The notes beneath the pieces are model-generated. The model made no database searches, was not told the origin of the DNA, and worked only from the letters and a program-made list of their open reading frames with translations. From contig CAMMMH010000015.1 in assembly GCA_946497955.1 (NCBI GenBank), positions 1 to 36,452 on the forward strand: a stretch of DNA of 36,452 bases, given 5' to 3'. The translations under genes and the position numbers were made by a program. The DNA is from an uncultured Mycoplasmatota bacterium (GTDB lineage Bacteria; Bacillota_I; Bacilli_A; RF39; UBA660). Positions 15,701-23,215 of the stretch are shown one piece after another (positions within the stretch are counted from its first letter, which is position 1; the number at the start of each line of letters is the position of its first letter).

Positions 15701-16288
15701 ATGGGTAAAAGATTTTTAAGATATTTTAGTTTTGTAATTGTTGTCTTTGCTTTAGCTTTTGTTGTATTATCTGGTAATAATAAGACTGTAGTAATGACTT
15801 CTAATATAAATAGTGTAAAGAGTTTGCAAGCAGTTCATATTGTTAATAAGTATAATTCTATTAAGGAGATGGAGAAAGCGAAAGAGCCTACTTTATATAA
15901 TAACTTTTATGATGCGATTAGTGTGGCTAGTAGTAGTCCTGTAGCTTTTATGGGCACTCTTACTGCTTATGGACCTGACTGTCCAGGATGTTCTGGTAAT
16001 AGTGCATGCCCACCTCGTCAAAACTTTAAAAATGGTAATATCTATTTTGAAGACCAAGTATATGGAAAAGTTAGAGTGGTTGCTGCAGATAGATCTATTC
16101 CATGTGGTAGTATTGTTAGGATAAGTGGAATCAATATATATAGTGAACCTATTCTTGCTATTGTTATGGATAGAGGTGGAGCGGTTACAGGTAACCACAT
16201 GGATTTATTATTTACAAGTCAATCTAACTTGGAAGGTTTTGCTACTAGCCATAATATAAAATTTGAACTTATACGATATGGTTGGTAA
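15701..16288 (+). CDS. Membrane-anchored 3D-domain protein (YabE-like)
   Basis: 195 aa. An N-terminal signal anchor (about residues 8-25) is followed by a linker and a C-terminal 3D domain at about 85-195. The three name-giving aspartates are visible in AADRSIPCGS, IVMDRGGAV and HMDLLF. The domain is a double-psi barrel related to MltA, found in peptidoglycan-active proteins such as YabE, YocH and YuiC. The four cysteines before it (CPGCSGNSAC and PCGS) are unusual for the domain. Unlike B. subtilis YabE it lacks G5 and DUF348 repeats. The place after tatD is the yabE slot. A role in wall remodelling is inferred. Confidence 0.85.
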   Translation: MGKRFLRYFSFVIVVFALAFVVLSGNNKTVVMTSNINSVKSLQAVHIVNKYNSIKEMEKAKEPTLYNNFYDAISVASSSPVAFMGTLTAYGPDCPGCSGNSACPPRQNFKNGNIYFEDQVYGKVRVVAADRSIPCGSIVRISGINIYSEPILAIVMDRGGAVTGNHMDLLFTSQSNLEGFATSHNIKFELIRYGW

Positions 16289-16316
16289 ATTATATGTAAA
16301 ATCATTTAAAAAGTAG

Positions 16317-16345
16317 TTGCGTTTAATATTTTAATTTGCTATAGT
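16317..16345 (+). promoter_or_regulatory. Promoter of TasA-like gene 1
   Basis: TTGCGT (16317-16322), 17-bp spacer, extended -10 TGC-TATAGT (16340-16345). The same module recurs before paralogues 2 and 3. Confidence 0.75.
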
Positions 16346-16373
16346 TATATTGTAGAAGGAGGTTAGACAAAAG

Positions 16374-16985
16374 ATGGGAGATAATAATAACAATTCAAAA
16401 CAAGTGTTATTATCAGTGCTTGGTGTAGCAATTTTAGTTGTAGCTGTAGTTGGAGTTTCATTCGCTGCATTTACTTATAGTAAAACAGGAGAAAAAGTTA
16501 ATACTATTACAACTGGTACTATTACAATGAGTTATAGTGAAACTACTAATGGTATTAATTTAACTAATGCACTTCCTATGACTGATGGTGTAGGTAAAGC
16601 TTTAAAAGATACAAATCAATATTTTGATTTTACAGTTAATGCTACTATTAGTGGTAATACAACTATCAATTATGCAGTTACTGCTACTAAAGAATCAGAC
16701 AGTACTATTCCAGATACGGGAGTTAAAGTTTATTTAACTGATATGGATGGTGATGCTGATACTGAAATTGTGCCACCAACTAAAGTTTCTGAATTAGATG
16801 TGACTGCAAGTGACGTTTCAGGTGCACCAGATGATCAATTTTTATTAACATCTGATACATTTAGTGCTTCTAACTCACATGATTATCGTTTAAGAATGTG
16901 GGTAGCAGATGATTATGCTGCTCCAGCAACTGCTCAAACTTATAAGTTAAGAGTAAATGTTTATGGTTCAGCAGCTGCTCAATAG
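16374..16985 (+). CDS. SipW-dependent TasA/camelysin-like surface protein 1
   Basis: 203 aa. A short Asn-rich start is followed by a hydrophobic segment (about 11-33) of the SipW-dependent signal-peptide type, with SFAAFTYSKTGEKVN at its end where cleavage would fall. The secreted part is rich in Thr, Ser, Asn and beta-branched residues. Landmarks shared by all paralogues are NGINLTNALPM, NQYFDFTV and YRLRMWV near the C-terminus. There is no LPXTG and no HExxH. TasA-type proteins assemble into extracellular fibres after SipW cleavage. A perfect AAGGAGG ribosome site and its own promoter suggest high expression. Identity as a fibre subunit is inferred from signal type and the linked signal peptidase. 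Confidence 0.82.
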   Translation: MGDNNNNSKQVLLSVLGVAILVVAVVGVSFAAFTYSKTGEKVNTITTGTITMSYSETTNGINLTNALPMTDGVGKALKDTNQYFDFTVNATISGNTTINYAVTATKESDSTIPDTGVKVYLTDMDGDADTEIVPPTKVSELDVTASDVSGAPDDQFLLTSDTFSASNSHDYRLRMWVADDYAAPATAQTYKLRVNVYGSAAAQ

Positions 16986-17002
16986 AAAAAACATAATTAT
17001 AT

Positions 17003-17030
17003 AAAAGTGTCTAATCTCTGACACTTTTTT
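17003..17030 (+). terminator. Terminator after TasA-like gene 1
   Basis: AAAAGTGTC (17003-17011), 8-base loop, GACACTTTT (17020-17028) and Ts. Nearly the same hairpin follows genes 2 and 3. Confidence 0.9.
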
Positions 17031-17048
17031 CTTTTTTTAGAAAAGTAA

Positions 17049-17078
17049 TTGCTATTTTAGTTAGTTTTATGCTATAGT
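17049..17078 (+). promoter_or_regulatory. Promoter of TasA-like gene 2
   Basis: TTGCTA (17049-17054), 18-bp spacer, extended -10 TGC-TATAGT (17073-17078). Duplicate of the gene 1 and gene 3 modules. Confidence 0.72.
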
Positions 17079-17106
17079 TGTATTGTAGAAGGAGGTTAGA
17101 CAAAAA

Positions 17107-17730
17107 ATGAAAGAGAATAATAATAACTCAAAACAAGTGTTATTATCAGTTCTTGGTGTAGCAATTTTAGTTGTAGCTGTTGTAGGAGTTTCATTTGCAG
17201 CATTTAGCTATAGTAAAACAGGAGAAAAAGTTAATACAATTACAACTGGTACTATTTCAATGAATTATGTTGAAGGTGAAAATGCTATTAACTTAACTAA
17301 TGCACTTCCTATGACTGACGATGTTGGTAAAGCTTTAGCTGATACAAATCAATATTTTGATTTTACTGTAAGTGCTAAGATTACTGGTGATGCTACAATT
17401 AATTATGCTATAACTGCACAAGAAGCTAATGAGGAAGCAGAATCTGCTATTCCTAATACAGGAGTTAAAGTTTATTTAACTGATATGGATGGTGATGCTG
17501 ATGATGAAATTTTAGCACCAACTAAGGTAAGTGAATTAACTGCAACTACTGGTAGTGAGCCATCTGGAACACCAAGTGGTCAATTTATTCTTCATACTGG
17601 TACATTTAGTGCTACTAGTTCACATGATTATCGTTTAAGAATGTGGGTAGCTGATGATTATGCTGCTCCAGCAACTGCTCAAACTTATAAGTTAAGAGTA
17701 AATGTTTATGGTGCTGCTGCTGCTCAATAG
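17107..17730 (+). CDS. SipW-dependent TasA/camelysin-like surface protein 2
   Basis: 207 aa. Closest to paralogue 1: the signal segment (about 11-33), the NTITTGTI stretch and the last 30 residues are nearly identical, also at DNA level. The central region (about residues 80-160) differs by substitutions and small insertions such as EANEEAES. The pattern of constant ends and a variable middle fits recent tandem duplication with divergence or recombination. It carries its own promoter, AAGGAGG ribosome site and terminator, spaced about 730 bases from gene 1. Confidence 0.82.
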   Translation: MKENNNNSKQVLLSVLGVAILVVAVVGVSFAAFSYSKTGEKVNTITTGTISMNYVEGENAINLTNALPMTDDVGKALADTNQYFDFTVSAKITGDATINYAITAQEANEEAESAIPNTGVKVYLTDMDGDADDEILAPTKVSELTATTGSEPSGTPSGQFILHTGTFSATSSHDYRLRMWVADDYAAPATAQTYKLRVNVYGAAAAQ

Positions 17731-17747
17731 GAAAAGCATAATTATAT

Positions 17748-17774
17748 AAAAGTGTCTAATCTCTGACACTTTTT
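17748..17774 (+). terminator. Terminator after TasA-like gene 2
   Basis: AAAAGTGTC (17748-17756), loop, GACACTTTT (17765-17773). Duplicate of the gene 1 terminator. Confidence 0.9.
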
Positions 17775-17789
17775 CTTTTTGGAAAATGA

Positions 17790-17819
17790 TTGCTATTTTA
17801 TTCAGTTTTATGCTATAGT
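17790..17819 (+). promoter_or_regulatory. Promoter of TasA-like gene 3
   Basis: TTGCTA (17790-17795), 18-bp spacer, extended -10 TGC-TATAGT (17814-17819). Confidence 0.72.
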
Positions 17820-17847
17820 TGTATTATAGAAGGAGGTTAGACCAAAA

Positions 17848-18465
17848 ATGAAAGATAATAATAATTCAAAACAAGTATTATTATCAGTACTTGGTGTAGT
17901 AATTTTAGTTGTTGCTGTTGTAGGAGTTTCATTTGCAGCTTTTAGTTACAGCAAGACAGGAGAAAAAGTAAATACAATTACTACAGGTACTATTACTATG
18001 AGTTATAGTGAAAATACTAATGGTATTAACTTAACGGATGCTTTGCCAATGTCTGACGAACAAGGTAAGGCTTTAGCTGGAGAAAATAATGTTTTTGATT
18101 TTACTGTGACTGCTACTATTAATGGTTCTGGTACTACAACAATTAATTATGACGTAACAGCAACTAAAGAGAGTGATAGTACTCTTGATGATAGTGCTGT
18201 GAAGGTATATTTGACTAATATAGATAGTAATGCTGATACTCAAGTTTTGAAACCTACTAAAGTTTCTCTTTTATCAACTACTGGTAGTTCTGAAGCAAGT
18301 GGTGCTCCTAGTGGTCAATTTAAGCTTACAACTGGAACTTTTACATCTACAGGAACACATAAGTATAGATTAAGAATGTGGGTAGCTGATGATTATTCTA
18401 ACTTAGGTAGTTCAGGAACTTATAAATTGAGAGTAAGTGTATATGGTGCTGCAGCAGCGCAATAG
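17848..18465 (+). CDS. SipW-dependent TasA/camelysin-like surface protein 3
   Basis: 205 aa. Third member of the near-identical group, with the same signal segment and C-terminal YRLRMWVADDY, but with a more diverged middle (FDFTVTATINGSGTTTIN; SEASGAPSGQFKL). NQYFDF is replaced by NNVFDF. Promoter, AAGGAGG ribosome site and terminator are again duplicated. No catalytic motif is visible; a structural surface protein is the simplest reading. Confidence 0.82.
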   Translation: MKDNNNSKQVLLSVLGVVILVVAVVGVSFAAFSYSKTGEKVNTITTGTITMSYSENTNGINLTDALPMSDEQGKALAGENNVFDFTVTATINGSGTTTINYDVTATKESDSTLDDSAVKVYLTNIDSNADTQVLKPTKVSLLSTTGSSEASGAPSGQFKLTTGTFTSTGTHKYRLRMWVADDYSNLGSSGTYKLRVSVYGAAAAQ

Positions 18466-18480
18466 AGTTTTAATTTCTAG

Positions 18481-18508
18481 AAAAGTGTCTAATCTCTGAC
18501 ACCTTTTT
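18481..18508 (+). terminator. Terminator after TasA-like gene 3
   Basis: AAAAGTGTC (18481-18489), loop, GACACC plus five Ts. A slightly decayed copy of the repeated terminator. Confidence 0.82.
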
Positions 18509-18514
18509 CTTTTC

Positions 18515-18543
18515 TTGCTAAACTTCAATAGATGTGTTATATT
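18515..18543 (+). promoter_or_regulatory. Promoter of TasA-like gene 4
   Basis: TTGCTA (18515-18520), 17-bp spacer, extended -10 TGT-TATATT (18538-18543). Confidence 0.65.
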
Positions 18544-18563
18544 TTTATTGTAGGAGGCTTTAT

Positions 18564-19175
18564 ATGAAAAAGGAAAATAGTAATAATTCTAAGTCAATTG
18601 TACTAATTATAGTTTGCATTATTATTTTAATTTTAGCTGTAGTTGGAGTAAGCTATGCTGCTATTTTTTATTCTAAGGCAGGAGAAAAAGTTAATAGAGT
18701 TACAACTGGTACTATGACTATGAGTTATAGTGAGAATACTAATGGTATTAATTTAACTAATGCACATCCTATGACTGATGATATTGGTAGAAATTTAAAT
18801 GATACAAATCAATATTTTGATTTTACTGTAAATGCAACTATTGGTGGTAATGTTATAATTGATTATGTTGTTACTGCTACTAAAGAAGGAGATAGTACTT
18901 TGCCAGATAATGCAGTAAAAGTATACTTAACTAATTTAAATAGTGGAACTGAATCTCAGGTTTTGGCTCCAACTAAAGTTTCAGATTTACAAATTACTTA
19001 TCAAAATACAGCTGGTGCACCAGATGGGCAGTATGTTCTTTTTTATAGCACTTTTAGTCAAACTGAAGCTCGTAATTATCGTTTAAGAATGTGGGTTGCT
19101 AGTGATTATGTTCTTCCAAGTTTTAGTCAAACTTATAAATTACGAGTAAATGTTTATGGTAGCATAGTTGAATAA
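18564..19175 (+). CDS. SipW-dependent TasA/camelysin-like surface protein 4
   Basis: 203 aa from ATG 18564, which follows TAGGAGG at 18551-18557; the frame is open to a GTG at 18534, but that codon lies in the promoter. It is more diverged than copies 1-3: the signal segment is Ile-rich (IVLIIVCIIILILAVVGVSYA) but the GEKVNRVTTGTMTMSYSENTNGINLTNA region is retained. NALPM has become NAHPM and the C-terminus ends NVYGSIVE. Its promoter and terminator are not copies of those of genes 1-3, so it is an older duplicate. Confidence 0.8.
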   Translation: MKKENSNNSKSIVLIIVCIIILILAVVGVSYAAIFYSKAGEKVNRVTTGTMTMSYSENTNGINLTNAHPMTDDIGRNLNDTNQYFDFTVNATIGGNVIIDYVVTATKEGDSTLPDNAVKVYLTNLNSGTESQVLAPTKVSDLQITYQNTAGAPDGQYVLFYSTFSQTEARNYRLRMWVASDYVLPSFSQTYKLRVNVYGSIVE

Positions 19176-19188
19176 GATATTAGATGTG

Positions 19189-19211
19189 GTACAGTTTATC
19201 TGTACTTTTTT
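19189..19211 (+). terminator. Terminator after TasA-like gene 4
   Basis: GTACAG (19189-19194), 5-base loop, CTGTAC (19200-19205) and six Ts. Confidence 0.85.
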
Positions 19212-19268
19212 CTTTACCTAAAAAAATTAGTGTGATACAATTATTTTAGAATACGAGGGAGTGTAATT

Positions 19269-19901
19269 ATGGATAATCAAAATTATAATGATGAAGTTAT
19301 AAAAAAAGAATCAAACAATAAAATATTTATTATTATTATTTGTTTACTTATTTTTATTATTATGGTAATTGGTGTTTCAGTTGCAACTTTTACTTATACA
19401 AAGGAAAATAAAAGTATTAATACGATAAGTACAGGTAATATTTATTTGAATTATACAGAAGATACTAATGGAATTAATATTACAAATGCTTATCCAATAG
19501 CTGATGAAGTAGGAAAAACTTTAACTAATGAAGATCAATATTTTGATTTTACAGTTGAAGCTTCGCTAGAAGGTGATGTTGCTGCTAAATATGAAGTGTC
19601 AGCAGAGAAAGAAACTTCTTCTACATTAGATAATGATGAAGTTAAGTTATACTTAGAAAAGAAAGTTAATAATTCATATCAAGAAGTAATGGCTCCTAAG
19701 CGTTTTACTCCTCTTAAAGAGAGTACAGATTTAGGAACAATGGCAGGTACGATGTTATTAGACAGTGGTACTTTATCTAAAAGTTCAACTATTAATTACC
19801 GTTTAAGAATGTGGGTTGATGAAAATACTATATTAGATAATTTAGAAAAAAGTTTCGGAGTTAGAGTTTCTATTAAAGCAAAAGTTGATTTAGCAGAATA
19901 A
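19269..19901 (+). CDS. SipW-dependent TasA/camelysin-like surface protein 5
   Basis: 210 aa, the most diverged of the five. A longer acidic/polar N-terminus (MDNQNYNDEVIKKESNN) precedes an Ile-rich membrane segment (about 19-42). Still shared are NGINITNAYP, DQYFDFTVEA and YRLRMWVDE. The body is more charged (Glu/Lys) than the Thr-rich copies 1-3, and the C-terminus ends KAKVDLAE. It is the copy next to the signal peptidase, and no strong terminator separates them, so it may be partly co-transcribed with sipW and could be a minor or anchoring subunit. Confidence 0.78.
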   Translation: MDNQNYNDEVIKKESNNKIFIIIICLLIFIIMVIGVSVATFTYTKENKSINTISTGNIYLNYTEDTNGINITNAYPIADEVGKTLTNEDQYFDFTVEASLEGDVAAKYEVSAEKETSSTLDNDEVKLYLEKKVNNSYQEVMAPKRFTPLKESTDLGTMAGTMLLDSGTLSKSSTINYRLRMWVDENTILDNLEKSFGVRVSIKAKVDLAE

Positions 19902-19977
19902 ATTTCTCATAATGACTTTTTCTTCTTTTTAAGTTGTGATATTATATACTTTAGAATAATAAGTGGGTGATAACTCA

Positions 19978-20652
19978 ATGAAAAAAAATAATAAAGAATG
20001 GTTAACTACAGTGAAAAAAGCATTTCATTTTATTACAACAGTACTAATGTATTCCATTTGTTTAATAATGATAATTGTTTTCTTAGTATTTGTAGTTAAT
20101 TTTATAGATAAACAATATAATTTGAAGTCAGGAGAAAATAAAAAAGACCTTTTTTCAGCTTATACAATAGTTAGTCCTTCTATGGTTCCAGCAATTAATG
20201 TTTTAGATGTTGTTGTTACTATGAGAGTAAATAGTCCTGAAGATTTGGAGAAAGGTGATATTATAACTTTTAATTCTACTGATTATAGATATTCTGGTGT
20301 TCTTGTTACACATAGAATTGTTGATATAGAAAAAACTAGTAGCGGTGAATATTTATTTACTACAAAAGGAGATAATAATAATACTCAAGATTCTTCAAGA
20401 ATTAGTTTTGATGAAATATATGGTAGTGTTTTATTTAGAATTCCTAAAATAGGTTATATTCAATATTATCTTAGTTCGGTTTTAGGATGGGTTGCTATTA
20501 TTATAGTTCCTGCTGTTATTATTATAGGCTATGATATTTATAAACTAATTAAAACTTTAAGGTCTAATGATAATGGTTCTACAAAAAGTGAAAATAAAGA
20601 AAAAAAGAAGAAAAAAATCAAGAAAGAAAAAGAAAAGAGGTTTAAAAAATGA
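19978..20652 (+). CDS. sipW: SipW-type (ER/archaeal-like) signal peptidase I
   Basis: 224 aa from ATG 19978; the GTG at 19963 lies in the GTGGGTGA ribosome site. Topology is an N-terminal membrane segment (about 19-43), an external catalytic domain and a second membrane segment (about 165-190), then a very basic Lys/Glu tail. The catalytic serine is Ser68 in VSPSM. Instead of the bacterial Lys there is His112 (VTHRI), and Asp132 lies in TKGDNN, which is the Ser-His-Asp arrangement of SipW and eukaryotic Sec11. SipW processes TasA and TapA in Bacillus. The TATACT at 19945-19950 may be its -10. The stop overlaps the next gene (ATGA). Confidence 0.9.
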   Translation: MKKNNKEWLTTVKKAFHFITTVLMYSICLIMIIVFLVFVVNFIDKQYNLKSGENKKDLFSAYTIVSPSMVPAINVLDVVVTMRVNSPEDLEKGDIITFNSTDYRYSGVLVTHRIVDIEKTSSGEYLFTTKGDNNNTQDSSRISFDEIYGSVLFRIPKIGYIQYYLSSVLGWVAIIIVPAVIIIGYDIYKLIKTLRSNDNGSTKSENKEKKKKKIKKEKEKRFKK

Positions 20653-21194
20653 AAAAAATAATTTTATTATTGTTGGCTGGAGTTGCTTTATTTGCTTTTA
20701 TTTTTACGACTTCAATACTGTGGTATAGATTCTTTTATAATGATTCTACTGTTATAAATGATGTCGGTTCTGTTAATGTTCAACTTGGTGATAACAACGT
20801 AATAGATGAAAGTGGTTTCATTCCTTTAGATGATGAGACCGCTAAAAATATTACTCCATATGAGTTTAAGGTTGAAAATAATAGTAACGGTGATGCTTTA
20901 TATACTGTTTTGTTAGAAGATGGTATGATTAGTGATGATGCTAATTATACTAATAAGGAATTACTTTCAAGAAATCAGCTAAGATATCAGTTATCTTTAA
21001 ATGGTAATGTTATTAAAGTTGGTAATTTAAGTGAAATTGAAAATAATGTTTTAGATACTAGGAATATAGCTTCTTCACAAGTTAATAATTATCAATTACG
21101 TATCTATGTAGGCGAGTCTTTCCAAAACACTGATTGGCAGAATAAATATTATCATTTTAATATTAATGTACAAATGGAGGATGAAAATGTATGA
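20649..21194 (+). CDS. Divergent TasA/TapA-like secreted protein
   Basis: 181 aa. One hydrophobic segment at about 4-25, then an extracellular domain. Sequence identity with the five upstream paralogues is low, but the layout matches: a short strand after the signal (VGSVNVQLGD), PYEFKVENNSNGDALYTV in place of FDFTV, and NNYQLRIYV in place of YRLRMWV. It overlaps sipW by 4 bases and the next gene by 4 bases, so all three are translationally coupled. By analogy with TapA in the tapA-sipW-tasA operon it could be an anchoring or nucleating partner; that role is inferred. Confidence 0.68.
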   Translation: MKKIILLLLAGVALFAFIFTTSILWYRFFYNDSTVINDVGSVNVQLGDNNVIDESGFIPLDDETAKNITPYEFKVENNSNGDALYTVLLEDGMISDDANYTNKELLSRNQLRYQLSLNGNVIKVGNLSEIENNVLDTRNIASSQVNNYQLRIYVGESFQNTDWQNKYYHFNINVQMEDENV

Positions 21195-21880
21195 AAAAGT
21201 TTCTTTTAGAATATGCTAATGTTTTTGCTTATACTATTACTGGTTTAATTTTTGGCCTTGCTTTCTTTTTGCTTTTTATTAACTTCTATCATATGCAGGA
21301 GCTGGCTGAAACTGTTGATGTTAGTTCTTATAATGATACTAATAAGGCAACTGTAGAAAGTAAAATTGAAACTATAAGAAATAATATAAGTGTTTATAAT
21401 CAATCTACTTATACTGGTTCTCTTAATATATATGGGCTTAATACTGTTCAGCTAAAATTACAGGATTGTCTTGAAATATTAGAAAGTGAAGATATGATGA
21501 AATATTTTGAGTTAGATGAGATAGGTATTAAGGATAGTTATAATTTTACTTTGGATTTTAAAAATAAAATATTAAATGACTGTTTAGTTATGCAGGTTAA
21601 ATCTATGTTTAATACTGATACTGTGTCAATGTTACCTAATTTTAATGTTATAAAGCCTTATGTAGAACTTAATTTAGACACTTTGCTTGATTCTACTAAT
21701 TATGTTCAAAGTAATATTGAAAATTCTGATCATTATTATTTCAGTACAGAAACTAATAAAGCTAATTTCTTTAATTTAGTTGATGATAGTTATTCAGATG
21801 TTATGAATAGTTATCAGAATTCTCTTGATTTACTTGTAGAAGTTTCTAATTGGTATAGAAATGTAGTATTAGGAGGTTAG
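21191..21880 (+). CDS. Unknown single-pass surface protein of the sipW operon
   Basis: 229 aa. One N-terminal membrane segment (about 10-31, YTITGLIFGLAFFLLFINFY) is followed by a roughly 195-residue extracellular part that looks helical and is rich in Asn, Ser, Tyr and Asp (NNISVYNQSTYTGSLNIYG; NFTLDFKNKILNDCLV). Two cysteines are present. Not recognised. It starts within the stop of the preceding gene (ATGA), which argues that its amount is matched to the sipW and TasA-like products. It could be an adaptor or assembly factor for the surface fibre. Confidence 0.65.
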   Translation: MKKFLLEYANVFAYTITGLIFGLAFFLLFINFYHMQELAETVDVSSYNDTNKATVESKIETIRNNISVYNQSTYTGSLNIYGLNTVQLKLQDCLEILESEDMMKYFELDEIGIKDSYNFTLDFKNKILNDCLVMQVKSMFNTDTVSMLPNFNVIKPYVELNLDTLLDSTNYVQSNIENSDHYYFSTETNKANFFNLVDDSYSDVMNSYQNSLDLLVEVSNWYRNVVLGG

Positions 21881-21883
21881 ATA

Positions 21884-22339
21884 ATGAAGAAAATTTTTAA
21901 TTGGTTATTTTATGGTCTTAAATTTCTTCTTTTAATTGCAGCTTTGGGTTTGACTTTGTTTGTTTTAATTAGAATGAATGTAAGACTTGAAAAAAATATG
22001 ATGTCAGTTTTACCAGAATTAATTCCTTTTGCACTTTTATTAATTTTGTTTATAGTTAATATGATTTTTAAACAAAAAGGTGTTAATGAAAATATATTTT
22101 ATAATTTAACTTGTTGTTTGGTTTTAGCGACAATTGTGTGTGTAGCTTTAAGGGCTGTTTTGGATACTAATATGGTTCTTAATGAAAAATATGGATATGG
22201 TGTTGATTTTAACTTTTTTGATAATTTTGTTGCTTATATAAATATCATGTTATATGGTTTATCAATTGCTAATATTTTGTTTATGTTTAGGGAAAAAGAA
22301 GATAAAGTTCAAAAGTCTAAGAAATTAAAGAAAGCTTAG
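21884..22339 (+). CDS. Unknown small polytopic membrane protein of the sipW operon
   Basis: 151 aa with about four hydrophobic segments: near 9-27, 45-61, 73-90 and 110-130. The C-terminus is basic (KEDKVQKSKKLKKA). Not recognised. It follows the previous stop by three bases, behind a good GGAGG ribosome site, and is last in the operon: a strong terminator overlaps its stop codon. An accessory role in export or anchoring of the TasA-like proteins is a guess from context. Confidence 0.65.
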   Translation: MKKIFNWLFYGLKFLLLIAALGLTLFVLIRMNVRLEKNMMSVLPELIPFALLLILFIVNMIFKQKGVNENIFYNLTCCLVLATIVCVALRAVLDTNMVLNEKYGYGVDFNFFDNFVAYINIMLYGLSIANILFMFREKEDKVQKSKKLKKA

Positions 22340-22347
22340 ACTTTTTT
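22311..22347 (+). terminator. Terminator of sipW operon
   Basis: AAAGTCTAAG (22312-22321) pairs perfectly with CTTAGACTTT (22335-22344) across a 13-base loop, then Ts. The stop codon of the last gene is in the 3' arm. Confidence 0.9.
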
Positions 22348-22348
22348 C

Positions 22349-22377
22349 TTTACAATTATTTTAACTCTTAATATAAT
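22349..22377 (+). promoter_or_regulatory. rsmA promoter
   Basis: TTTACA (22349-22354), 17-bp spacer, TATAAT (22372-22377), directly after the sipW-operon terminator. Confidence 0.8.
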
Positions 22378-22411
22378 CTAAGTGTAGATGAAATTAAAGG
22401 AAGTGAGTTTT

Positions 22412-23215
22412 GTGGAAGAGTTTAAATTTAAGAAAAAGTTCGGACAAAATTTTTTACAGAATAAAGCTGTTATTGATAAGATTGCTAAAGTTGCTTTAGT
22501 TAAACCAGGGTCTTTAATTATAGAAGTAGGTCCTGGCAGTGGTAATTTAACTGTTGCTTTAGCAGAACTACATAAAGATAGTAATATTTTGGCTTATGAA
22601 ATAGATAATAATTTAGAAGATATTCTTTCTGTTAGACTTAATGATTATAATAATGTAAAAGTCTTATTTTCTGATTTTCTTAAGGCAGATATTGCTTTAG
22701 ATGTGAAGGAATATTCTTATAATAATATTTATTTTGTTAGTAATGTACCATACTATATAACTACTCCTATACTTTTTAAATTGATTGATAGTAATTTAGC
22801 TTTTGAAAAAATTGTAATGATGGTTCAAAAAGAGGTTGGGGATAGATTTTGTAGTAAAGTATCTACAAAAGATTATGGGGGTCTTACTGTTATTCTTAAC
22901 TATTTTTTTGATGTGAGAAAGGAATTTGTTGTTGATAGAAATCAGTTTTATCCTAGACCTAATGTTGATAGTGTTGTTGTTTCTTTTAGTAGAAAAGAGA
23001 AGCTTGAAGAGTTAGCAGATAAAGACTTTTTTATAAAGCTTGTTCATGATAGTTTTCAGTTTAGGAGAAAGACTTTAAGAAATAATTTAAAGAAATATGA
23101 TTTAGAACTTTTAGAGAGTGTTTTAAATAAATATGGATATGATTTGAGTGTGAGAGCTGAGGCTTTAGATTATAAAATATTTGTTGAGATGGCTAATACT
23201 TTATATAAATCATAA
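22412..23215 (+). CDS. rsmA: 16S rRNA dimethyladenosine transferase RsmA (KsgA)
   Basis: 267 aa from GTG 22412, preceded by AAAGGAAGTGA. The in-frame ATG at 22388 would lie only about 4 bases from the predicted transcript start, with no ribosome site. KsgA dimethylates A1518 and A1519 in 16S rRNA during 30S assembly. Signatures: FKFKKKFGQNFL near the N-terminus, the SAM motif IEVGPGSGNLT, and the catalytic NVPYYITTP (N-x-P-Y). The C-terminal helical domain is complete. In B. subtilis rnmV lies just upstream; here the surface-protein island takes that place. Confidence 0.95.
   Translation: MEEFKFKKKFGQNFLQNKAVIDKIAKVALVKPGSLIIEVGPGSGNLTVALAELHKDSNILAYEIDNNLEDILSVRLNDYNNVKVLFSDFLKADIALDVKEYSYNNIYFVSNVPYYITTPILFKLIDSNLAFEKIVMMVQKEVGDRFCSKVSTKDYGGLTVILNYFFDVRKEFVVDRNQFYPRPNVDSVVVSFSRKEKLEELADKDFFIKLVHDSFQFRRKTLRNNLKKYDLELLESVLNKYGYDLSVRAEALDYKIFVEMANTLYKS

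Follow-up and report, generated by a model that had tools for sequence, protein, structure and literature searches.

What does an island of tandem TasA-like genes with its own SipW-like signal peptidase gene build in an uncultured bacterium of the Mycoplasmatota? Most of what is known about TasA-type fibers comes from a few Bacillus species, whose fibers have one or two subunits. The island analyzed here (positions 16317..22347) lies in the window, by which we mean the whole 36,452-nt stretch of contig CAMMMH010000015.1 that was studied, and belongs to a genome of 1.72 Mb in 81 contigs that is 92% complete. On the plus strand it contains five tandem TasA-like genes (tas1 to tas5, copies 1 to 5), followed by sipW, six, mem7, and mem8. 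A preliminary description of the window had read the island as a multisubunit fiber or coat system, and this view gained support: the island probably encodes heteropolymeric fibers or a coat whose subunits would be matured by SipW and joined by donor strands, with a dedicated membrane assembly module. That fibers are formed is suggested by the fold of the subunits and the type of locus.

Relationship of the array proteins to TasA

Profile searches of Pfam, NCBIfam, and PDB with the subunits gave nothing above the cut-offs. A search with hidden Markov models for TasA and camelysin, suggested as a check in the preliminary description, yielded 13.8 bits against PF12389 (Peptidase_M73; cut-off, 22.5) and 15.6 bits against NF046066 (TasA; cut-off, 450), both below the cut-off, so that the subunits are not members of either model. 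As identification by sequence alone gave nothing over the cut-off, profile-profile and fold comparisons were used. In hhalign, the mature part aligned with M73-family proteins with a probability of 73.8 and a pairwise E value of 2.9e-5 over 55 columns, values that are moderate and not decisive, and the reversed controls gave 0.7 and 1.1; this points to a moderate similarity to the M73-family profile. For the predicted fold of copy 1, the TasA fiber 8aur_A ranked top by VIA-align Z score, although nearly tied with other matches (Z, 7.0; root mean square deviation, 3.9; 136 aligned), and its alignment was the longest among the matches listed in this comparison. The VIA-align rows within 1 Z of TasA, however, are unrelated sandwiches, and Foldseek placed TasA 14th, so that the predicted fold leans toward TasA without being distinctive. 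The fiber model, against which an unrelated fold had been named as an argument, was not refuted by this comparison. Together, the profile-profile comparison with its reversed controls and the near-tied predicted fold support the view that the subunits are remote homologues of TasA.

The five array proteins comprise 203 to 210 amino acids, and their genes recur at a spacing of 733, 738, 722, and 726 nt. Over 300 nt, identity to copy 1 amounts to 89, 74, 71, and 60% for copies 2 to 5, respectively, which is far above chance. Three motifs had been ascribed to the array proteins. YRLRMWV is present in all five, and YFDFTV in copies 1, 2, 4, and 5, with copy 3 deviating (VFDFTV), but NGIN(L/I)TNA occurs in its exact form only in copies 1, 4, and 5 (copy 2, NAINLTNA; copy 3, NGINLTDA). 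For copy 4, the ATG at 18564 behind AGGAGG was favored as the start over the mechanical GTG at 18534.

When 62 subunits were aligned, the end of the signal segment showed A31 in 61 of them, an aromatic residue at position 30 in 47, and F, I, or V at position 33 in all 62. These residues and the sipW gene adjoining the presumed substrates indicate a SipW-type signal peptide, at whose end the subunits would be cleaved. Fifteen columns of the alignment are invariant, among them N43, T47, G48, and Y54. Diversifying selection was considered and is not claimed, since the nonsynonymous rate (dN) was lower than the synonymous rate (dS) in all zones and all pairs of copies 1 to 4 with one exception, residues 32 to 60 of copies 1 versus 2 (0.17 versus 0.14); in one further zone dS was saturated.

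Conservation of the array and the adjoining block

For synteny counts, 23 close loci from public genomes were used as the genus set. One of them (L069) belongs to Candidatus Onthousia faecipullorum (Bacilli incertae sedis), whose genus is reportedly listed in a paper on the chicken gut. The genes sipW, six, mem7, and mem8 are contiguous in all 23 loci, and rsmA follows this block in 21; in the other two the contig ends earlier. A yabE-like gene lies upstream in 16 of the 23 loci, and six others start at or inside the array or the block. In locus L064, a 422-amino-acid antisense frame, by eye a transposase, stands upstream in place of the yabE-like gene.

The array varied between 3 and 7 copies in the 17 complete loci (16 with an upstream yabE-like gene plus the window): 3 loci had three copies, 9 had four, 3 had five, and one each had six and seven. 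In a tree of 94 copies (23 p1, 22 p2, and 49 p3+ rows), the copies adjoining sipW (p1; tas5 in the window) formed a single clade with a support of 100/100, and those preceding p1 (p2; tas4) formed a single clade with a support of 99/100, while the p3+ copies are the class varying in number. The locus consists of three tiers: the variable array (p3+), the fixed positional orthologues p2 and p1, and the block sipW-six-mem7-mem8. As a family-wide position, p1 was only partly upheld: the p1 rows of the genus shared one clade (98/87) with 9 of the 15 sipW-adjacent copies of other genera and with 4 nonadjacent ones.

Among 60 genomes, TasA-like domains (E ≤ 1e-5) were found in all 35 of the genus (4 to 35 each) and in none of the 25 others, and mem7 in 31 of the 35 and again in none of the 25. 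A wider draw from the family detected mem7 in 27 of 291 genomes; 3 of these belong to the genus, and the remaining 24 represent 13 further genera. A comparison of the regions upstream of rsmA in related genomes, as the preliminary description had proposed, could thus be carried beyond the genus by inspecting 20 of these 24 regions, from 12 genera. There, mem7 was flanked by sipW and mem8 in all 20 and six was detected in 17, with rsmA downstream in 18 (in L125 past four other frames) and TasA-like genes before sipW in 15. In two regions (L130 and L131), tatD is directly followed by sipW-six-mem7-mem8, without an array. As the block persists in other genera, even in regions lacking the array, it is the stable core of the locus, and the array is its changeable part. 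In L142, the block is located apart from rsmA. Region L116, from a further genus in this family, shows by eye a tandem row of four M73-like genes that resemble one another, apparently a comparable expansion that arose independently.

A SipW match at 1e-5 was missing in 5 of the 35 genus genomes. A patchy distribution was considered as the reason and set aside, as assembly gaps explain or may explain these cases. In G005, mem7 (at 471) and rsmA (at 1674) lie on contig C9, which starts inside the island, and in G006 the contig with the yabE-like gene stops within the array. The genomes G008, G022, and G031 gave no rsmA match at 1e-20, and a real loss is possible in these three.

The SipW-like signal peptidase

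The peptidase scored 91.1 bits (6.3e-26) against TIGR02228, the model of endoplasmic reticulum (ER)/archaeal-type signal peptidases, and thus above the cut-off of 51.85, but only 20.2 bits against TIGR02227, the model of LepB-type Ser-Lys peptidases (cut-off, 47). Against NF046067, the Bacillus SipW equivalog, it reached 96.2 bits (1.7e-27), which is below the cut-off of 190. The arrangement Ser68-His112-Asp132 noted before, together with Asp138, was present in all 44 aligned SipW sequences (the window, the 23 genus loci, and 20 loci of other genera). A grouping with Ser-Lys peptidases, the second argument that had been named against the fiber model, was therefore not observed. By scores and residues, the protein is an ER/archaeal-type signal peptidase I that is SipW-like, yet not an NF046067 equivalog, and is not of LepB type. 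Its profile matched human SEC11A (5.8e-15) with Ser, His, and Asp aligned over the active site; a second matched SEC11A sequence (9rjb) has Ala opposite Ser68.

The LepB-type gene of the genome lies on another contig (G000:C6; 168.4 bits). A SipW query of the same genome found one peptidase at E ≤ 1 and missed this LepB gene, so that its reach is limited. Eight genus members (G003, G011, G012, G017, G020, G021, G024, and G034) carry a second SipW-like peptidase, about 30% identical; in six of these eight genomes a further signal peptidase-like match lies in a frame of about 670 amino acids at a distance of about 4.6 to 4.7 kb, which represents a separate system. The SipW orthologue at G017:C46:1684-2328 contains an in-frame TGA.

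The proteins Six, Mem7, and Mem8

The "divergent sixth member" of the preliminary description was recovered by hhalign: Six aligned with the array subunits with a probability of 96.2, which fell to 88.9 after trimming of the signal segments, and reversed controls gave 0.3. By this comparison, Six is remotely related to the five array proteins. A 4-nt overlap between its gene and sipW was seen in 24 of 24 loci. At the position of the cleavage-site Ala, 17 of 17 aligned Six proteins from the genus have Leu or Met, and Six could possibly be an uncleaved anchor. We leave it at this grade because 7 of the 17 Six proteins of other genera have kept the Ala, as S-Y/F/I-A-W or S-Y-A-F.

The two proteins that follow had been described as unknown membrane proteins, in line with their hydrophobic segments (one in Mem7, about four in Mem8). 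Mem7, for which no credible Pfam family was found, has 229 amino acids in 22 of the 23 genus loci (257 in L062, via an earlier mechanical start), and a helical bundle is predicted with good confidence behind its hydrophobic helix. For Mem8, none of the 16 members searched matched a Pfam family at E ≤ 0.01; ahead of its last hydrophobic segment, conservation is strong over the stretch KYGYGxDFNF. Judged from basic termini rather than a computed topology, the Mem7 bundle and the Mem8 loop would face the outside.

Predicted transcription units

As listed in Table 1, terminator-like sites follow copies 1 to 4, i.e., four in the region compared to 1.0 ± 1.0 in shuffled sequences, and the scan of the window showed none behind copy 5. 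Across the loci, such sites were present in all 28 gaps between p3+ copies, in 14 of 22 gaps between p3+ and p2, and in all 23 gaps between p2 and p1, whereas only 1 of 23 gaps between p1 and sipW contained one, and this was not the gap of the window (baseline in shuffled sequences, 5 to 13%). The bulk (p3+) copies therefore look like separate transcription units, mostly one per copy, and p1 is probably cotranscribed with sipW-six-mem7-mem8. The earlier suggestion of alternate or minor subunits fits both this layout and the copy tree. Bacillus cereus offers a precedent, as one of its TasA homologues is reported to be cotranscribed with sipW and the other to be monocistronic (PMC4292775).

The promoter-like sites ahead of copies 2 to 4 are consensus matches only, and such sites showed no clear excess (49 found versus 40.5 ± 5.8 in shuffled sequences). 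The hairpin overlapping the end of mem8 was seen by eye and is absent from the scan list, and the cross-locus stretch missed its left arm. The transcription unit may stop there, ahead of rsmA; across the loci, a terminator-like site was found in only 8 of 22 gaps between mem8 and rsmA.

Table 1. Genes and predicted signals of the island (window coordinates)
Feature	Position	Strand	Remarks
tas1, TasA-like subunit 1	16374..16985	+	variable-copy class p3+; repeat comparison, fold model
tas2, TasA-like subunit 2	17107..17730	+	p3+; repeat comparison, tree
tas3, TasA-like subunit 3	17848..18465	+	p3+; repeat comparison, tree
tas4, TasA-like subunit 4	18564..19175	+	fixed positional orthologue p2; tree
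tas5, TasA-like subunit 5	19269..19901	+	fixed positional orthologue p1, adjoins sipW; tree
sipW, SipW-like (ER/archaeal-type, Ser-His-Asp) signal peptidase	19978..20652	+	224 aa; profile scores, catalytic residues
six, divergent TasA-like protein with N-terminal hydrophobic segment	20649..21194	+	181 aa; hhalign
mem7, one hydrophobic helix and predicted helical bundle	21191..21880	+	229 aa
mem8, about four hydrophobic segments	21884..22339	+	151 aa
Intrinsic-terminator-like site after copy 1	17003..17028	+	terminator scan
Intrinsic-terminator-like site after copy 2	17748..17773	+	terminator scan
Intrinsic-terminator-like site after copy 3	18485..18502	+	terminator scan
Intrinsic-terminator-like site after copy 4	19188..19206	+	terminator scan
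Promoter-like site ahead of copy 2	17049..17078	+	TTGCTA-18-TATAGT, TG before -10; consensus match
Promoter-like site, copy 3	17790-17819	+	consensus match
Promoter-like site, copy 4	18515-18543	+	consensus match
Hairpin and T-run	22314..22348	+	overlaps mem8 end; by eye

Genomic setting of the island

The island is flanked by metG, tatD, and a 3D-domain (yabE-like) gene upstream and by rsmA, yabG, and spoVG downstream; ORF calls, profiles, and flanking genes thus agree with the gene content and the yabE-like/rsmA flanks given in the preliminary description. Its proposed location in the slot of rnmV, which we take to lie between yabE and rsmA in Bacillus subtilis, is consistent with the result that TIGR00334 (rnmV) gave no match across this 92%-complete genome. 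Apart from the missing rnmV match, the order metG-tatD-yabE-rsmA-yabG is intact at window positions 15701-23215.

TasA-like proteins elsewhere in the genome

The genome contains 18 TasA-like matches at E ≤ 1 and 17 at E ≤ 1e-5 (16 by profile at 1e-5), of which 13 and 12, respectively, lie outside the five tandem genes. Besides the five array proteins, the 18 comprise four of 188 to 218 amino acids (one, on contig C19, with an E value of only 0.02), eight of 544 to 622 amino acids, and a frame of 337 amino acids near a contig end. The eight large proteins (L010, L013-L016, and L018-L020) carry a SipW-type signal and a TasA-like domain at the N terminus, with S/T-Y-A-x-F/L at the signal end in all eight. 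Their C-terminal parts finish in motifs such as YWSMTP, YWLLSP, and GSFRLVMS, and for the six of eight tested against Pfam and NCBIfam (L015 and L016 were left out) nothing scored above the cut-off. A lectin nature of the large proteins was considered and not adopted, the hits being weak and below the cut-off (FGE-sulfatase, 0.034 and 0.079; DUF6273, 0.0019, the latter in a neighboring 621-amino-acid protein that is not one of the 18 matches).

Two other genes stand next to TasA-like ones. A 621-amino-acid protein (L012:1032-2897), outside the 18 matches, has by eye the look of a SYAMF signal and matches DUF6273 (0.0019). The protein at L022:1885-2571, adjoining a TasA-like match with an E value of 0.02, combines by eye a pilin-like N terminus, NNKGFAITTILYG, with a ricin-type lectin domain (9.6e-16).

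Proposed mechanism and alternative explanations

In B. subtilis, TasA subunits are reported from cryo-electron microscopy to be joined by an N-terminal donor strand, residues 28 to 38 (PMC9674648). By analogy, the presubunits of the island would be cut by the local SipW-like peptidase at a LepB-unfriendly site, with a mostly aromatic residue before the Ala and a hydrophobic one two places behind it, and the freed N-terminal strand would complete the beta-sandwich of a neighboring subunit, giving rise to heteropolymers. The separately transcribed, variable-copy tas1 to tas3 would supply bulk subunits, and p2 and p1 specialized or minor ones, p1 being coexpressed with the machinery. A membrane platform would be made up of Six, Mem7, and Mem8: Six would be a TasA-like end subunit tied to the membrane, as starter or anchor, and Mem7 and Mem8 would dock or chaperone the subunits on their way out of the membrane. 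Their positions make p1 and Six candidates for a starting or anchoring role, and Mem7 and Mem8 are candidates for docking. The local peptidase may also mature the large TasA-headed proteins, possibly display or tip subunits. A bolder version, in which the platform corresponds in function, in a Gram-positive cell, to a chaperone/usher base, starting and elongating mixed TasA-type donor-strand fibers and inserting the large TasA-headed proteins as display or tip subunits, with a bulk composition tuned by gain and loss of the independently transcribed array copies, is offered as a tentative idea that we hold to be possible but doubtful.

The same genes could instead encode individual surface proteins that are processed by SipW and form a coat without donor-strand fibers. 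These would be beta-sandwich lectins or adhesins retained by larger partners or by the wall, and Six, Mem7, and Mem8 would serve to sort or anchor them as a complex. Several results lean this way: TasA-like domains head eight proteins of 544 to 622 amino acids in the same genome, the fold searches also gave scores for lectins and adhesins with a beta-sandwich, and the VIA-align match to TasA is nearly tied with those to unrelated sandwiches. We nevertheless consider a fiberless coat unlikely, because TasA combined the highest Z with the longest alignment among the matches listed and because the invariant N43, T47, G48, and Y54 lie just behind the expected TasA-like donor strand, which would span about residues 32 to 42 if the first aligned pair (47/43) sets the offset from TasA.

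A sporulation-linked system, in which SipW would mature proteins of the spore coat or the forespore surface, appears improbable. Spo0A_C is matched in the genome (3.3e-41) and the island adjoins yabG and spoVG, but these neighbors belong to an inherited housekeeping order, which we take to be that of B. subtilis, so that adjacency is a weak argument. TasA was first described as spore-coat associated, as stated in PMC9674648; the further TasA-like domains of the genome, however, are scattered over it. Camelysins are annotated as Peptidase_M73, and secreted metalloproteases rather than structural subunits would be another reading. With HExxH absent from all 94 array subunits and PF12389 matches below the cut-off, we give it hardly any credence. 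Donor-strand-joined fibers or a coat built by a membrane module thus remain the reading we prefer.

Comparison with known systems

A search of the open-access literature found no paper describing the locus by title or abstract. What is new about it is, above all, the conserved block and its two uncharacterized families of membrane proteins, along with the tiers of the array and an expansion of SipW-type substrates across the genus. If the proposed reading is true, the start, the anchoring, and the multisubunit make-up of Gram-positive donor-strand fibers become directly testable, and the locus would represent a likely route of surface building in little-known uncultured bacteria, at least one relative being a chicken-gut Candidatus.

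The signal peptidase resembles the ER/archaeal-type SEC11A in its active-site residues but differs from it by a second strong hydrophobic segment (165-183), a Lys-rich tail, and the chromosomal tie to TasA-like genes. Archaeal bundling pili (Pyrobaculum calidifontis, 7ueg) are archaeal and gave a lower structural score. In the B. cereus system of sipW-tasA, capP, and calY, as far as the cited reports describe it, TasA homologues are likewise split between sipW-linked and monocistronic genes, and a dedicated accessory protein is present, CapP (bc1280), composed of DUF4047 and repeats; the mixed TasA/CalY filaments reported there (PMC13082335) correspond to the heteropolymers that we propose from the genes. 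Compared with that system, the island has more subunits, six-mem7-mem8 instead of CapP, and another gene order and locus. The tapA-sipW-tasA operon of B. subtilis, according to the publications cited, shares the SipW-type peptidase beside TasA-type substrates with a LepB-unfriendly cleavage site (PMC10269814) and an accessory gene overlapping sipW, tapA-sipW there (PMC10151520) and sipW-six here; TapA is reported to donate its N terminus in the TasA fiber (PMC10151520). Unlike this operon with its single TasA, the island and its relatives have 3 to 7 array copies, most of them followed by a terminator-like site of their own; they also have two additional conserved membrane proteins and many TasA-domain-headed proteins elsewhere. 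The locus gives the impression of a Bacillus biofilm-fiber system in a more elaborate form.

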